Source of the DNA: Lysinibacillus sp. FSL M8-0337
Lineage (GTDB): Bacteria > Bacillota > Bacilli > Bacillales_A > Planococcaceae
Reading direction: 5' to 3'
Assembly (NCBI RefSeq): GCF_038593855.1
Contig: NZ_CP151996.1
Span: 3,410,001-3,474,000, forward strand
DNA: 64,000 nucleotides
Of the stretch, positions 2,293 through 62,768 are shown in pieces. Below the pieces are notes generated by a model that ran no database searches, was not told the origin of the DNA, and saw nothing but the letters and a program-made list of their open reading frames with translations. Every line of letters begins with the position of its first letter. Position 1 is the stretch's first letter. A program made the translations under genes and the position numbers.

Positions 2293-2315
2293 GGTGCCAG
2301 TCACCCAAACAATTC
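2293..2315 (+). repeat. REP-like element copy 1 (3' of acuC)
   Basis: GGTGCCAGTCACCCAAACAA followed by TTC starts 3 bp after the acuC stop, in the same orientation as the gene. It matches the other REP-like copies in this window (core GTGCCAGGCACC plus CAAACAATTCTGAA). Confidence 0.75.
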
Positions 2316-2323
2316 ACTACAAT

Positions 2324-20610: not shown

Positions 20611-20634
20611 GGTGCCAGGCACATAAACAATTAC
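20611..20634 (+). repeat. REP-like element copy 2
   Basis: GGTGCCAGGCACATAAACAA followed by TTAC. This copy is intergenic, between the PTS-IIC-like gene and the ytnP terminator, and is not at the 3' end of a plus-strand gene. Confidence 0.7.
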
Positions 20635-20650
20635 ACCAAGACAACTAAAA

Positions 20651-46732: not shown

Positions 46733-46758
46733 GTGCCAGGCACCCAAACGATTCTGAA
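46733..46758 (+). repeat. REP-like element copy 3 (3' of dctM; left arm of REPIN)
   Basis: GTGCCAGGCACCCAAACGAT followed by TCTGAA starts 1 bp after the dctM stop in gene orientation. It is the left arm of an inverted pair with copy 4. Confidence 0.8.
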
Positions 46759-46760
46759 TT

Positions 46761-46786
46761 TTCGAATTTGTTTCGGTGCCTGACAC
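46761..46786 (-). repeat. REP-like element copy 4 (right arm of REPIN)
   Basis: On the minus strand it reads GTGTCAGGCACCGAAACAAA followed by TTCGAA, beginning directly after the stop of the anti-sigma gene. It is inverted relative to copy 3 with a 2-base centre, so the two can fold into one hairpin. Confidence 0.8.
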
Positions 46787-51219: not shown

Positions 51220-51430
51220 AAAAACTCGCCCCTTCCTTTGTCAGAAAGGGACGAGAGTATTCTTAACTCCCGCGGTACCACCCAAATTAGTGATTACACT
51301 CGGCTCAAGCTTCCTTAACGCGGAAATAACGGCAAACGTAACAATTACATATTACGTATGCAGACTCAGCAGGCGAGTTCAACTTGCATCCTTACTAGCT
51401 TCCACCAACCGCTAGCTCTCTAAAAAGAAC
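51220..51430 (-). promoter_or_regulatory. T-box leader of leuS
   Basis: The T-box sequence GGGTGGTACCGCGGG is at about 51268-51284 on the minus strand, followed by an antiterminator/terminator region with CTCGTCCCTTTC pairing to GGGGCGAG (51224-51256) and a T-run. The likely specifier is CUC (Leu) in GAACUCGCC at 51372-51380. Uncharged tRNA-Leu would favour antitermination. Confidence 0.93.
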
Positions 51431-51518
51431 CACAAATTTACTATTCCTCATCAATGTCTTTACATGTATTGCATTTATTCTAATGGAAAGTTCTAAAAAG
51501 CACAAGCATCTTTTTATG

Positions 51519-51540
51519 GTGCCTGACACGCACACAATTT
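51519..51540 (+). repeat. REP-like element copy 5 (upstream of the RAYT gene)
   Basis: GTGCCTGACACGCACACAAT followed by TT lies about 175 bp upstream of the RAYT start, in the same orientation. It is the closest copy to the transposase gene. Confidence 0.7.
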
Positions 51541-51714
51541 CCACACAATTATTAAAAAAAATTTTTTATGATTATTTTCACCAACAATTTTTCATTTCAA
51601 CCTTCTATGCAGATGAAAAATAAAAATAGTCATTACTTTCGTAACTCCCGTCTAATTGACGTTCTTTACATGCTTTTTTATGCTAAAGAAAAAAGCTAAA
51701 GGAGGCAATAGCGT

Positions 51715-52299
51715 GTGCCAAGAAAAAAACGGCTTTGGTCCCCAGATCATTATCATCATGTAGTAGTGCGCGGTAATAATCGTCAAACTATATTTCACAA
51801 TGTTGCAGATTACGATGCTTTCTTTCGTGTATTGCAATATGCTTATCATAAATATTCGTTTAAGATTGTTACCTATTGCGTTATGTCTAACCACTATCAC
51901 CTGCTGATTCGTTCACCCAAAGTACCACTAGGCAAAGTGATGGCCAATGTAAATTGGCGCTACAGCAATTACTTTAAAAAGAAATATCACTATTGCGGTC
52001 ATCTTTACGAAAGTCGATATTTTGCAGACCTTGTTCCCTCACAACTCGACATGCTTAGTGTTAGTCGCTATATTCACCGCAATCCCATCTCAACGTCTCC
52101 CCCTATGGTTGCCAAGATGGAGGACTACCCTTATAGCTCGTATTATTTCTACAAGCATGATATATCTTCAAACTACCCATTCTTTGATACAAGTATTCTC
52201 AAAAGTTATTTACTTCAAACCTCACAAGCTCACTCACTATCCTATTGTCAGTATTGCGAGGAACATGAAGGCAAATCATTTAATGTAGCACCCCTATAG
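51715..52299 (+). mobile_element. REP-associated tyrosine transposase (RAYT, Y1/TnpA-REP family)
   Basis: The gene starts at GTG with GGAGG nine bases upstream and codes for 194 residues. The HUH metal motif is H60-Y61-H62 (MSNHYHLLI), and Y119 in RYIHRNP is the likely nucleophile; the N-terminal HYHHVVVRGNNRQ is typical of RAYTs. Unlike an IS200 transposase it has no partner gene or clear IS ends. RAYT proteins act on REP hairpins; here the candidate substrates are the eight REP-like copies in the window, one of them 175 bp upstream. A perfect hairpin follows the stop. It appears intact. Confidence 0.88.
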
Positions 52300-52300
52300 A

Positions 52301-52336
52301 AAAGCTCCACACGACAATCCATCGTGTGGAGCTTCA
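52301..52336. terminator. Perfect hairpin after the RAYT gene
   Basis: AAGCTCCACACGA and TCGTGTGGAGCTT form a 13-bp perfect stem with a 7-base loop. There is no strong T-run; it could be a terminator or a recognition hairpin. Confidence 0.65.
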
Positions 52337-52350
52337 CTCTTCAAAAACTA

Positions 52351-54090
52351 TCAATTGTCAGAATCTTTTCCGTGCCTGTCACTCGAAAAGTCAGCGCATT
52401 CATGGAAGGCGAAATGTTTACAACCAAGGCATTTATTCATATCTAAATGTGTCAATGCTCTATTTATAGCTTCTCCTGTATGTTCAAAAAAATGATCTTG
52501 TCCAATTTGAGCATATAGTCCATTACGCATTAGCGCTGCTTTTAAGTCCTCTTGTATACCCGTGACGAAGACCTTGCCACCACGCTTTGTAAAGTTCTCC
52601 ACAATATTGCTAAAATAAGACTCACCTGTGGAGTCCATAAATGGCACTTTCCCCATACGTAAAATCAGGACGCTTGGTTGCTCTTGCATAGAATGCAGTA
52701 ATGTCTCTTCAAACGTTTGCGCTGCACCAAAAAACAGTGGACCCTCAATCGTATAAATACTAATTTGTGGGCAATCATGCTTTTGATTGACAACATAAGG
52801 TTGTACCTTTCCATTCTTTTTTGTATGGTCTGGTAATACTTTATCTACCACCAACTTCTCACTCATTCGTTTAGCAAACAACACAATGGCTAAGCCAAGA
52901 CCGACTTCAACAGCAATCGTTAGGCTGGCGAAAACGGTAAGCAAAAATGTAATGATTAATACAAGTGAATCTCCAGATTTCGCTTTTACAATATGAGCAA
53001 AATGTTTTTGTTCACTCATATTCCACGCAACGACCATTAGTACTGGTGCCATACTTGCTAACGGAATATGCGAAGCAAAGGGCGCTAATAACAATAACGT
53101 GACTAATACAAAAACACCATGAATAATACCTGACATTGGTGTTGCAGCACCCGTTTTAATATTGGTTGCCGTACGTGCAATCGCCCCAGTAGCAGGAATC
53201 CCTCCGAATAAAGGTGTAATAATATTCGCTATACCCTGTCCTACAAGCTCACGATTACTATTATGTTTCGTATTGGTCATTCCGTCAGCAACAACTGCTG
53301 ATAAAAGCGACTCAATCCCGCCCAAAATGGCAATCACAAAGGCAGGTCCAATCAATAATTGTAATCGTTCCAAGGTAATTTCTGGTATCGAAAACTTTGG
53401 TAACGTATTAGGAATTTGACCATAAGCCGTAGCAATTGTTGCAACTTGTCCTGAAAAAAAGAAGGTAGCGACAAGGGTAGAAACAACAATGCCTACTAAT
53501 GCGCCAGGTACTTTTGGGAAAAATTTAGGTGTTAAAAGAATAATTACAAGACAAATAATCGCTATGAAAATACTATAATAATTGATTGTTCCTATATGCA
53601 CGAACAACTCTTTCATATTTGAGATAAAATATTCATGACGTGTAATATTTGTTAAACCTAAAAAATTAGCTATTTGTCCCGTAAAAATGATAACCGCAAT
53701 ACCCGCAGTAAAGCCTATCGTTACTGGGCGTGGAATAAATTTTATAAGAGTACCTAGCTTGAAAAGACCCATTAAACATAGCAGCACTCCCGCCATTAAC
53801 CCCGCAATTAATAAATTTTCATAGCCATACGATAAGACAATGCCTAAAAGAATTGGCACAAAAGCGCCTGTTGGTCCACCGATTTGGAATTTTGAACCTC
53901 CAAATAGCGAAATAAGTATGCCCGCAATACACGCTGTATAGATCCCATATTCCGGTTTTACACCGGAAGCAATGGCAAAAGACATAGCTAGTGGAATTGC
54001 AACAATCCCAACAATTATGCCAGATAATAAGTCCTTTTTAAAATGATCAACTGAATACCCTTCAAACCGACCTGTAAACAGTGATTTCAT
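52351..54090 (-). CDS. SulP family anion transporter with STAS domain
   Basis: The 579-residue protein has about 10-12 membrane helices (residues 20-415), a cytoplasmic linker, and a C-terminal STAS domain (about 440-545, PSVLILRMGKVPFMDSTGE). SulP carriers move sulfate, bicarbonate or other anions; the substrate is not predictable. A short Cys/His-rich tail follows (CLGCKHFAFHECADF). The last ten residues (SDRHGKDSDN) lie in a REP-like repeat. An ArsR-family regulator gene lies 75 bp upstream on the same strand. Confidence 0.9.
   Translation of the reverse strand: MKSLFTGRFEGYSVDHFKKDLLSGIIVGIVAIPLAMSFAIASGVKPEYGIYTACIAGILISLFGGSKFQIGGPTGAFVPILLGIVLSYGYENLLIAGLMAGVLLCLMGLFKLGTLIKFIPRPVTIGFTAGIAVIIFTGQIANFLGLTNITRHEYFISNMKELFVHIGTINYYSIFIAIICLVIILLTPKFFPKVPGALVGIVVSTLVATFFFSGQVATIATAYGQIPNTLPKFSIPEITLERLQLLIGPAFVIAILGGIESLLSAVVADGMTNTKHNSNRELVGQGIANIITPLFGGIPATGAIARTATNIKTGAATPMSGIIHGVFVLVTLLLLAPFASHIPLASMAPVLMVVAWNMSEQKHFAHIVKAKSGDSLVLIITFLLTVFASLTIAVEVGLGLAIVLFAKRMSEKLVVDKVLPDHTKKNGKVQPYVVNQKHDCPQISIYTIEGPLFFGAAQTFEETLLHSMQEQPSVLILRMGKVPFMDSTGESYFSNIVENFTKRGGKVFVTGIQEDLKAALMRNGLYAQIGQDHFFEHTGEAINRALTHLDMNKCLGCKHFAFHECADFSSDRHGKDSDN
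52358..52382 (-). repeat. REP-like element copy 6 (inside the 3' end of the SulP gene)
   Basis: On the minus strand GTGACAGGCACGGAAAAGAT followed by TCTGA covers the last codons of the SulP gene, in gene orientation, just before the stop. Confidence 0.72.
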
Positions 54091-54656: not shown

Positions 54657-54683
54657 TTCAGAATTGTTTGCGTGCCTGCCACC
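54657..54683 (-). repeat. REP-like element copy 7 (over the 3' end of the yttB gene)
   Basis: On the minus strand GGGTGGCAGGCACGCAAACA followed by ATTCTGAA covers the last eight codons and supplies the TGA stop. Confidence 0.78.
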
Positions 54684-55830
54684 CACGGTCATAAATCAGA
54701 CATGGGAAAATGCCTAGTAATACAATAACTACTAAAATTGAAACAAGGGCAATCATACCAAACTGATCGACCATAATACCGCCGAACAATGGGCCAATCA
54801 TACGACCTGTTGTAGCCGCACTATTTATAATACCTTGGTAAAAACCTTCGCGTCCCTTTGGTGCAAGCTGATTCGCAATGGTTGGTAAAGCTGGTGTATA
54901 AAACATTTCCCCAAATGTTAATACGACCATTGCAGCAGCAAACATTTTAAAATCATCAGCAAATGCTACAATACCAAACGAAGCTGCAATAAGCGTAATG
55001 CCAAATACTAATTGACGCTTAAGTTGATGTTCCCAACGGCGCACAAGCGGTGCGATTAGTGGTTGCCCAACAACAATAAGGAGCCCATTAATCGTCCAAA
55101 GTAAACTATATTGTTTTAACCCTAAGCCCAAATCTTGCGTATAGGATGAAATGGTTGCACTCCATTGCGAATAGGCAAGCCAGCATAACACGGAAGATGA
55201 ACTTAAAATTAATAAGGCATAAAATGGTGCCTTATTTGTAATACGTTTACTTTCACTTACTACATTTTTCAATGCAATACTTTCCGCATCTATTCCTCTA
55301 AATGTAATCAATGCGATAAAGAAAAATAAAATATACATCGCTAAATTAACGACAAAAACATAATCAAATTGATAATCCGCCACAATCCCAGCTAATGCCG
55401 GCCCTACAGCAACACCTAAATTTTGCGCTAAATAAATCGCATTAAACGCCTTACGACCACCCTCAGGCCAAGCCGCTCCCGCTAACGCAAACATCCCTGG
55501 AAATACAATTCCTCCACTAAATCCAAGAATGGTTAAAAACCACACATAATGTGGCCAGCCATGCCAGATTGTTAATCCTATTAACGAAGCAACGGTCAAT
55601 AAAATGCCTAGCATAATCGATTTATAGCCACCAATTCTATCAAATAAAAATCCACCTAATAGATTGCCTAATACACCTGCAGCCGAATTCAACATTAAAA
55701 CAAAGCCAGCCATTGCAAGTGATTTCCCTAAATAATCATGCATGTAAATGGCATTTAAAGGCCATAAAAAAGAGTTGCCCGTCGTGTTCACAAGCATACC
55801 GATAATTAAAAACCAAACACTTTTTGGCAT
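54658..55830 (-). CDS. yttB: MFS transporter (YttB-like)
   Basis: The 390-residue protein has about 12 membrane helices with the MFS loop GGFLFDRIGGYKS. It resembles multidrug-type carriers; its substrate is unknown. The start chosen is the ATG at 55830 (MPKSVW), which has GGGGGT seven bases upstream; the frame extends to 55845 (MGVKD). The C-terminus (GWQARKQF) and stop are within a REP-like copy. It lies close to ytqA, as yttB does in B. subtilis. Confidence 0.85.
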   Translation of the reverse strand: MPKSVWFLIIGMLVNTTGNSFLWPLNAIYMHDYLGKSLAMAGFVLMLNSAAGVLGNLLGGFLFDRIGGYKSIMLGILLTVASLIGLTIWHGWPHYVWFLTILGFSGGIVFPGMFALAGAAWPEGGRKAFNAIYLAQNLGVAVGPALAGIVADYQFDYVFVVNLAMYILFFFIALITFRGIDAESIALKNVVSESKRITNKAPFYALLILSSSSVLCWLAYSQWSATISSYTQDLGLGLKQYSLLWTINGLLIVVGQPLIAPLVRRWEHQLKRQLVFGITLIAASFGIVAFADDFKMFAAAMVVLTFGEMFYTPALPTIANQLAPKGREGFYQGIINSAATTGRMIGPLFGGIMVDQFGMIALVSILVVIVLLGIFPCLIYDRGWQARKQF

Positions 55831-56122
55831 ATCCTTGACCCCCATTATTTCGTTTCTCTAAATAGCTAGTTTATGATGAAAAATAAAAAAGTACAAGGAA
55901 AATAAATTTACCCTTTGTTCACAAAAAAATTCTTAAATAAACAGTTTTTTCATCCTTTATGCGTTCGTTATAGCAGCCAACAGTTCTGTCGCTTTACCAC
56001 GGAAATAAATTGTTTATTCAATAAATAAAGCGGCATAACATTTGTCTCTGCATATTTAAATTCTTACTCCATGACGGAACCTTACGCACATGATAAAATA
56101 TAATGTTAGAGGAGTGAAATAC

Positions 56123-57079: not shown

Positions 57080-57702
57080 AGCTTCAACGCGTCTTACAAT
57101 ATGCACAGCAATTATTAATAGACTCAATACAAGAAGGCGATACTGTTGTCGATGCTACGGCTGGAAACGGTCATGATACATTATTTTTAGCTCAACTTGT
57201 TGGTGATAACGGACAAGTTTATGCCTTTGACGTGCAAAAAAATGCAGTCGATGCTACTTTGCACCGTCTGCTAGACAATGCCTTAGAACACCGTGCCCTT
57301 GTGTTACATACGGGGCACGAAAATATAGCCAAGCATGTTCAAAAACCAGTTGCGGCTGCTATATTCAATCTTGGCTATTTACCTGGCAGTAACCATGATA
57401 TCGTAACAAAACCAAATACAACGATTCTAGCAATTCAAGATTTATTACAACTGCTAAAAATCGGCGGTTTAATTGTCCTTGTCATTTACCATGGGCATCC
57501 AGGCGGCAAAGAAGAACGTGACGCAGTCATCGACTATGTTAGTCAGTTACCACAAAAATATATCCATGTGTTAAAATACGAATTTTTAAACCAACAAAAC
57601 GATCCACCATTTGTCATTGCATTAGAAAAAATGAAAGACTTCCCGGTGCCAGTCACTCAAACAATTCTGAACGCACAAGCAGCCGGTTGCGACGGCAATT
57701 AA
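57076..57702 (+). CDS. ytqB: YtqB, class I SAM-dependent methyltransferase
   Basis: The 208-residue protein has SAM-binding motif DATAGNGHDTLFLA (about residues 24-37), and NLGYLPGSNH, typical of the YtqB rRNA methyltransferase-like family. The start overlaps ytqA (ATGA). About 19 C-terminal residues (from VPVTQTILNA onward) are encoded by and just after a REP-like copy and are additional to the usual length of about 190 residues. Bidirectional terminator downstream. Confidence 0.9.
   Translation: MKLQRVLQYAQQLLIDSIQEGDTVVDATAGNGHDTLFLAQLVGDNGQVYAFDVQKNAVDATLHRLLDNALEHRALVLHTGHENIAKHVQKPVAAAIFNLGYLPGSNHDIVTKPNTTILAIQDLLQLLKIGGLIVLVIYHGHPGGKEERDAVIDYVSQLPQKYIHVLKYEFLNQQNDPPFVIALEKMKDFPVPVTQTILNAQAAGCDGN
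57645..57672 (+). repeat. REP-like element copy 8 (inside the 3' end of ytqB)
   Basis: GGTGCCAGTCACTCAAACAA followed by TTCTGAA lies in the ytqB reading frame near the stop, in gene orientation. Confidence 0.78.
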
Positions 57703-62639: not shown

Positions 62640-62768
62640 CTTTCACTCTTATCGTTCAAGGGGTATCCCCTTGCATCAGGTTGGCACCAACGCATGTCGT
62701 GAAATAGTTCATGCAGGTTGCCGGGTTTCACAGGGCCTGACCCTCCACCAGCTCGGGATAAGAGTATC
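62640..62768 (-). promoter_or_regulatory. SAM-I (S-box) riboswitch of metK
   Basis: On the minus strand the P1 helix is ACTCTTATC with GATAAGAGT (62644-62652 and 62757-62765), followed by GCTGGTGGAGGG and GAAACCCGGCAACCT, the S-box core. SAM binding should stabilise the terminator at 62581-62623. Confidence 0.95.

Follow-up and report, generated by a model that had tools for sequence, protein, structure and literature searches.

A single-copy RAYT gene and a dispersed family of short palindromic elements that very probably form a REPtron in Lysinibacillus

Introduction

Knowledge on REP sequences and on REP-associated tyrosine transposases (RAYTs) rests mainly on proteobacteria and on elements bearing a GTAG foot. 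TnpAREP cleaves the folded single-stranded REP by means of its Tyr and HUH residues, with the protein contacting the GTAG tetranucleotide (PMC8266576; this and the other papers are cited from the accessible parts of their texts), and the Y---NP motif constitutes the signature of class 2 TnpAY1 enzymes (PMC6006769). In P. fluorescens SBW25, inverted REP pairs known as REPINs form one hairpin, 61% of the REPs occur as doublets, and the RAYT gene is flanked by REPs (Bertels and Rainey, 2011, PMC3116915). The TIRYT/TIRtrons are RAYT-like genes bordered by inverted repeats devoid of GTAG, some of which form repeat families, with the TIR motif GGGGWSAS; the same source saw no obvious link between repeat families and the tyrosine transposase genes of its set, and states that GTAG REP termini give stop codons to flanking ORFs (PMC3733652). 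Atypical REPs without GT[AG]G were reported for TnpAY1 subclass 2.6, tied to Bacteroidetes, and for class 3, tied to Planctomycetes, Acidobacteria and Proteobacteria (Quentin, 2018, PMC6006769).

The accessible part of PMC6006769 contains no description of a REP type from Bacillota. Bacillus appears in that of PMC3733652 in passing only (Bcr1 elements), and PMC12306157 lists Bacillus subtilis palindromes in a text that, as far as accessible, does not contain the word RAYT. Likewise, the word Firmicutes is absent from the accessible main texts of PMC3733652, PMC6006769, PMC8049555, PMC3116915, PMC2817692, PMC12306157 and PMC8266576, and the word Lysinibacillus from what is accessible of PMC3733652, PMC6006769, PMC12306157 and PMC2817692. 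A literature search, which was thin on subscription papers and is no proof of absence, returned no description of a REP/RAYT pair in Bacillota.

In this work, we analyzed a window of 64,000 bp (G000:C1:3410001-3474000) from a Lysinibacillus genome of 4.56 Mb in one contig (G000), and compared it with its genus and family. From these sequence comparisons, we document the pairing of a RAYT with a dispersed element, its specificity, the co-variation of hairpin and RAYT lineage, the architecture of the flanks, the placement of copies at or past stop codons, and one clade-specific insertion. The locus very probably constitutes a REPtron of a Bacillota type, namely a single-copy, selectively maintained HUH/Y1 RAYT accompanied by dispersed short elements that it recognises, and our analyses indicate that the RAYT probably spreads these elements. 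It shares with the E. coli TnpAREP and GTAG REPs (group 2, 4er8) a PF01797-type enzyme with HUH, one Tyr and the Y---NP motif, a single-copy gene flanked by REPs, and many dispersed palindromes, part of them close past stop codons. The system would be a GTAG-free branch in Gram-positive bacteria; in it, transposase and target have changed specificity together, wobble intermediates persist, and RAYT-positive and RAYT-negative species occur within one genus, which makes REP recognition, the limits of REP populations and the upkeep of a tamed transposase directly testable in culturable soil bacteria.

Results and discussion

The RAYT gene

An intact RAYT-type gene with H60-Y-H62 and Tyr119 had been read in the window by a preliminary description, and this reading was confirmed: the ORF is uninterrupted (Table 1), its product matches PF01797 (Y1_Tnp) with 60.1 bits over a cut-off of 23, and it contains the HUH motif (H60-Y61-H62), the catalytic Tyr119, N123-P124 of the Y---NP motif and a C-terminal YCxYC. 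The residues H60, H62, Y119, N123 and P124 are invariant in an alignment across 39 RAYT relatives. The best NCBIfam match of the protein is NF047646 (REP-associated tyrosine transposase), matched by all 39 relatives at E<=0.001; the window protein scores 60.6 bits, without reaching the curated cut-off of 80 bits. Judging from the profile of the 39 relatives (A2), the closest solved structure would be that of E. coli TnpAREP, 4er8 (E 3.4e-6; following matches 0.3), and a search of structures with the single sequence returned only 2f4f, a putative transposase (E 0.024). Of the features of class 2 TnpAY1, the Y1_Tnp domain, HUH, catalytic Tyr, Y---NP and low copy number were found. The residues of the E. 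coli enzyme that contact GTAG, W94, Q95, E100, H101 and R104 (given in the accessible part of PMC6006769), align by eye with Y98, E99, A104, D105 and P108 in the protein from the window.

The 7 Lysinibacillus orthologues compared give dN/dS values of 0.07-0.17, indicating that the gene is maintained under purifying selection. The 8 Lysinibacillus carriers hold one RAYT per genome, and up to 6 per genome were found in the family. RAYT relatives are rare and distant on plasmids (15 of 72,556 records, every one below 60% identity) and on phages (1 of 50,697 records, 24% identity).

Table 1. Coordinates of the RAYT gene, of the elements in the window, and of RAYT loci with an abutting upstream ORF.
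Feature	Position	Strand	Core(s)	Remarks
RAYT / TnpA_REP-like gene	51715-52299	+		194 aa, GTG start, ORF intact
REP upstream of RAYT	51519..51552	+	51519-51529	hairpin outward, double tail CACACAATT..CACACAATT toward gene
REP downstream of RAYT	52357..52382	-	52372-52382	inverted, degenerate tail toward gene; overlaps 3' end of ORF 52351-54090 (-)
REPIN-like inverted pair	46733..46786	.	46733-46743, 46776-46786	54-bp variant; two convergent ORFs end on either side, their stop codons 1 and 0 nt away
REP singlet	2294..2319	+	2294-2304	4 nt past stop codon of ORF 1129-2289
REP singlet, degenerate	20612..20637	+	20612-20622	motif match
REP singlet	54657..54682	-	54672-54682	common to G028, G013, G027 and G021; overlaps 3' end of ORF 54658-55845 (-)
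REP singlet	57646..57671	+	57646-57656	within 3' end of ORF 57076-57702
Loci with ORF abutting RAYT upstream	L095, L097, L099, L102, L108, L111, L113, L115, L165, L168, L180	same as RAYT		

The dispersed element

The element is 26 nt long, with the consensus GTGCCAGTCAC-Y-CAAACAATTCTGAA, in degenerate form GTG(C)C(A)G(T/G)CAC-Y-CAAACAATTCTGAA, and a sharp 5' edge. It consists of a GTG...CAC mini-palindrome followed by a directional tail, CAMACAATTC. The consensus derives from 78 copies in G000, found in 54 sequences: the window and 53 stretches around 55 of the 66 site groups among the matches listed (to 2.96 Mb). The detection rule used positions 1-20, leaving positions 21-26 outside the rule, and degenerate copies such as 52372 score below it. 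The family noticed in the preliminary description is real, the motif read there being a variant of this consensus; all eight sites that it gave exist, but 46761, 52358 and 54657 are tail positions on the minus strand and not cores.

The strict 11-nt core GTGMCWGKCAC occurs at 152 sites of the genome, a count including a few chance matches within genes, vs 1 site for a reversed-pattern control; core plus tail occurs at 95 sites (48/47 by strand) vs 0 for the control. Within the window, GTGCCAGGCACC with <=2 mismatches gave 13 matches (counted on both strands, thus fewer sites), where 1.5 were expected and the maximum in 100 shuffles was 5. Although ORFs cover 83% of the sequence, 67 of the 78 copies lie outside them by midpoint, so the family displays the canonical REP feature of many, mainly extragenic copies. 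Three G000 cores without tail (L066:3402, L071:1458 and L073:1438), located inside ORFs of 347-565 aa, are probably no elements.

No conserved tetranucleotide corresponding to a GT[AG]G foot was found upstream of the hairpin in the positionwise consensus of the 78 copies; read on the opposite strand, the 5' side of the element is TTCAGAATTGTTTGR. Unlike the GTAG REPs of E. coli, the Lysinibacillus element thus has no such foot, its palindrome is much shorter and it carries a long directional tail; nor is its motif that of the TIRtrons. Given this absence together with the replacement of the residues that contact GTAG, we infer that the conserved tail replaces the foot, and it probably serves the function that GTAG has in the REPs of proteobacteria.

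As an RNA family, the elements were rejected: at gathering scores, Rfam gave no match at any element of the window, its only matches there being a T-box leader ahead of leuS (51244-51463) and a SAM riboswitch (62646-62764, minus strand).

Regarding genome-wide distribution, REP copies are preferentially located near the rayt gene in the system described in PMC2817692, and weakly so in G000, where 31 clusters lie <=500 kb from the RAYT vs 17.8 expected. A stretch of 690 kb in G000 (G000:C1:1885491-2575772) holds no full REP, the maximum gap under random placement averaging 277 kb (P 0.0002); this stretch lies opposite the contig start and is perhaps the terminus.

Elements flanking RAYT genes

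All 8 RAYT carriers of Lysinibacillus display inverted copies on both sides of the gene with the tails pointing inward, which is the REPtron arrangement of a RAYT flanked by copies of a dispersed REP. The upstream copy lies about 195-199 bp from the RAYT in 8/8, and in the 7 carriers other than G000 the downstream copy lies at +79 to +98, counted from the end of the RAYT match. The same upstream pattern, with the doubled tail CACACAATT, is found in members of genera g10, g13 and g18. RAYTs with 35-37% identity, from three loci under the labels Bacillus sp. or Cytobacillus firmus, have GTGACAGGCAC 92-102 bp upstream with a different tail; the strict core is absent from the Sporosarcina koreensis locus L011. 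Overall, a recognised hairpin lies <=450 bp away at 54 of 61 RAYT loci of the family.

Copy number and RAYT presence

The preliminary description had inferred the pairing of protein and element from proximity and sequence form, and that pairing is now borne out by core copy number within the genus, by the flanks described above and by the hairpin types described below. A link between RAYT and cores was set down as a prediction ahead of the RAYT search. Eight of the 32 Lysinibacillus genomes have this RAYT, their core counts being 262, 196, 166, 165, 152, 23, 23 and 23; 23 of the 24 genomes without RAYT hold 0-5 cores and the remaining one, G005 (86% complete), holds 12.

The comparison across relatives advised by the preliminary description thus gave a strong link in the genus, and a looser one in the family. 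Among the 261 genomes of the family, 133 have a RAYT match, with E values of about 1e-20 or lower in 128; a core count of at least 20 that was also at least 3 times the control was reached by 39 of these 128 vs 4 of the other 133 (Fisher 6e-10, with kinship ignored). Strict cores number below 20 in 89 of the 128, and other hairpin types account for some, not all, of these. The highest core count in the six genera without RAYT match (25 genomes) is 9. In 11 of 19 genera RAYT-positive and RAYT-negative genomes coexist, and the top core count belongs to a RAYT-positive genome in 8 of the 11; the link at genus level may rest on few events of gain or loss. These results differ from the lack of obvious correlation between transposase genes and repeat families noted in the accessible text of PMC3733652.

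Four core-rich genomes have no detected RAYT: G127 (31 cores), G174 (48), G175 (30) and G183 (34). The first has no PF01797 gene, and the other three have PF01797 genes only of the kind missed by the RAYT profile. They fit a loss of RAYT with the elements left behind, and are considered here as candidate losses.

Hairpin specificity follows the RAYT lineage

Three flank hairpin types were distinguished: GC (GTGMCWGKCAC), AT (GTACCNGGTAC with wobble forms) and T3 (the 9-mer CCTGTGCRY). A locus was comparable when its flank type was known and the genome held at least 10 copies of a type, which 49 of 61 loci satisfied and 12 did not. The flank type equals the dispersed type at 47 of the 49 (GC 33, AT 5, T3 9). 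The two mismatches are L162 (G043, in which the second RAYT examined has a GC flank) and L168 (G191), with a T3-type flank and a GC-type population of 87. For 20 of the 61 loci the prediction was fixed before the sequences were examined: 18 agreed, 2 had no recognised flank and none contradicted it. With four hairpin labels, the RAYT tree requires 10 changes vs 25 for shuffled labels; the types are therefore clustered by lineage, and the 47 agreements are not 47 independent events.

The AT-type element is missing from 238 of 261 genomes, and six genomes have RAYTs with an AT or wobble flank; five of these six supply the top counts (88, 35, 23, 20 and 13). In genus g18, AT elements number 13-88 in five of the six AT-flanked genomes, which have 2-10 GC cores or none; the sixth, G239, has a different loop and an AT count of 4, and two GC-flanked genomes have 23 and 56 GC cores and no AT elements. 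Compensated change from G-C to A-T was observed among matched flank and dispersed hairpins, and core pair 3:9, tallied for 45 elements (59 loci were scanned and 17 contributed; a few loci overlap or contain several copies), is G-C in 26, A-T in 11, G-T in 5 and A-C in 3.

Going beyond the Lysinibacillus locus, we tentatively propose, at somewhat less than an even chance, that the RAYTs of Bacillota form a separate branch with another REP code: GTG-loop-CAC (or GTA..TAC), a CAMACAATTC tail substituting for the GTAG foot, plus a fixed 34-bp phasing in some lineages. In such a branch specificity would have been switched repeatedly, in a manner trackable base by base (G-C, G-T wobble, A-T), and one clade would be located directly behind comM.

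T3-type elements are also dense away from the RAYT, with at least 12 in 60 kb of G078 (C1:700001-760000) and at least 21 in 80 kb of G092 (C1:660001-740000) among the matches listed, the genome totals being 41 and 51, respectively. By eye, the ORFs of these regions are ordinary, and several copies lie directly past stop codons.

Folding, inverted pairs and the 34-bp phase

Inverted pairs number 9 in the 54 sequences, two of them sharing one copy, and six measure exactly 45 bp, with two facing halves whose cores lie 34 bp apart. Two 45-bp pairs each fold into one 21-bp hairpin (z -10 and -11), and the window pair 46733..46786 folds with z -4.6; the REPIN feature of an inverted doublet forming one hairpin is therefore present, as in SBW25. 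Unlike the REPINs of that strain, the Lysinibacillus pairs mostly have a rigid length of 45 bp, and singlets dominate (61 of 78 copies in G000) instead of doublets.

Three singlets (-0.5, -2.5 and -1.0 kcal/mol; z 0.9, -1.2 and 0.35) folded no better than shuffles, giving no support to a stable hairpin per singlet REP, and in G000 a C.T mismatch occupies core pair 4:8 in most cases (34 of 51). Consequently, recognition may depend on something other than the small hairpin. An extension of the stem by pair -1:12 was discarded, no clean covariation being found in G000.

At the loci from L035 on, 27 of 44 successive core pairs <=130 bp apart, from Lysinibacillus and genera g4 and g18, show the 34-bp offset, six of the 27 belonging to one tandem array and eleven to three g4 stretches around RAYTs and their neighbours. 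Units of 45 bp were found in three genera, the spacer sequence in g4 being unrelated; in G047 (g5) the offsets are 46-47 instead of 34. Beside the RAYT of G237, AT-type cores occur in tandem with an exact 34-bp period (L096:2301-2515). Among the matches listed for G233, G236 and G246, several AT-type hairpins are tailed on both sides (tail'-hairpin-tail), unlike the inward 45-bp pair.

History of the copies and proposed mechanism

The suggestion that the window could hold a working RAYT/REP system is supported as regards the pairing of protein and element, and by analogy with the enzyme family its action can be outlined. The RAYT would bind hairpin plus tail on single-stranded DNA at the fork, Tyr119 would cleave beside the hairpin, and the cleaved unit would be joined elsewhere, slowly, with the RAYT gene itself staying put; the 34-bp phase may also have a role in this process.

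The recent past of the copies was compared between G000 and G028: in a G028 piece of 400 kb, 39 kb were aligned with 12 stretches of G000, at about 96-97% identity in most. The intergenic copies in the 39 kb aligned are common to both genomes, some of them differing by point changes or, within the core, by a short deletion (L067). Beyond these, one array is altered (L068) and one site (L084) has two copies in tandem in G028 vs one in G000; no clean gain or loss was seen in these 39 kb, which together point to a slow population. The 400 kb of G028 contain 23 element-like matches, 19 in aligned stretches; of the other four, 84550 matches a copy that carries point mutations in G000, while for one pair and a single weak match no counterpart was found in the G000 stretches examined.

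One insertion could be polarised. The copy at 57646 is present in G000, G028 and G013 (with a mutated core in the latter), which the RAYT tree groups together, and is missing at this site from G027, G021, G009, G029 and G015. It lies in what we take to be a methyltransferase-like gene and encodes a new C-terminus, KDF-VPV-QTILNAQAA-CDG, in the three genomes, the others ending in a KDLPTN-like sequence. This pattern indicates a clade-specific gain.

The slowness of this population bears on the strongest alternative, namely that the elements are fossils, once spread by a RAYT that would now have another host role, so that the pair would exist by descent without working mobility today. We consider this unlikely, but a real contender: the dominance of singlets and the lack of clean gain or loss between such close genomes agree with it, as does a RAYT under purifying selection, whereas near-perfect 45-bp units persist (L060, L047 and L094), and slow duplication is reported for REPIN populations too, with transposition rates near 1e-8 in the accessible text of PMC8049555.

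Placement at gene ends

Of the 67 intergenic copies, 24 begin 0-14 nt past a same-strand stop codon, vs a mean of 8.5 and a maximum of 18 in 2000 trials of random placement within the same intergenic stretches. In four copies the start lies 24 nt ahead of the final base of a stop codon, which coincides with TGA in the tail; in our reading, the tail would supply the stop codon at such gene ends, as GTAG termini are said to do for flanking ORFs (PMC3733652, accessible text). In the window, three of the eight copies (52372, 54672 and 57646) overlap coding 3' ends.

This placement, the conservation of most copies between G000 and G028, and the reported effect on translation of E. coli REPs <=15 nt from a stop codon (PMC12306157, as far as accessible) would also be expected if the elements were host regulatory sequences under selection (3' UTR hairpins, terminators or translation-control signals), with the RAYT adjacent by chance or a passive user. 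That reading is, in our judgement, quite improbable, since the RAYT-free genomes of the genus, with one exception, are nearly devoid of cores, the hairpin sequence tracks the RAYT lineage, and the 57646 copy sits in coding sequence. A co-option of some copies after their spread is compatible with the RAYT/REP explanation.

The only other PF01797 match in G000, at 573286, is missed by the RAYT profile and by its sequence looks IS200-like. The presence of this gene, the PF01797 genes of that kind in G174, G175 and G183, and the resemblance of the 45-bp unit with its terminal inverted cores to a MITE could be taken to mean that the elements are MITEs of another transposon (e.g., DDE or IS200-type), the RAYT neighbourhood being one insertion site, but this is very improbable, as the strict core is absent from the 3.4-kb locus of the IS200-like gene (L008), G127 has its 31 cores with zero PF01797 genes while G063 has five such genes and only 8 cores, the hairpin flanking the RAYT predicts the dispersed one, and every Lysinibacillus RAYT is flanked on both sides.

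The comM neighbourhood

One clade displays a particular setting. The T3-flank clade comprises 24 RAYTs, and at 11 of them a long ORF on the same strand ends <=21 bp upstream or overlaps the RAYT by 14 bp (Table 1), and no such abutting ORF was found at the 36 loci of other clades compared. Nine of the 11 ORFs were tested and all nine are of comM/YifB type (Mg_chelatase and Mg_chelatase_C, plus ChlI save in two partial ORFs). ComM has a role in natural transformation; in the tentative reading of a separate Bacillota branch, the location of the RAYT behind comM would suggest a tie of REP processing to the single-stranded DNA taken up or displaced in that process. At L105, comM seems to lie downstream of the RAYT instead.
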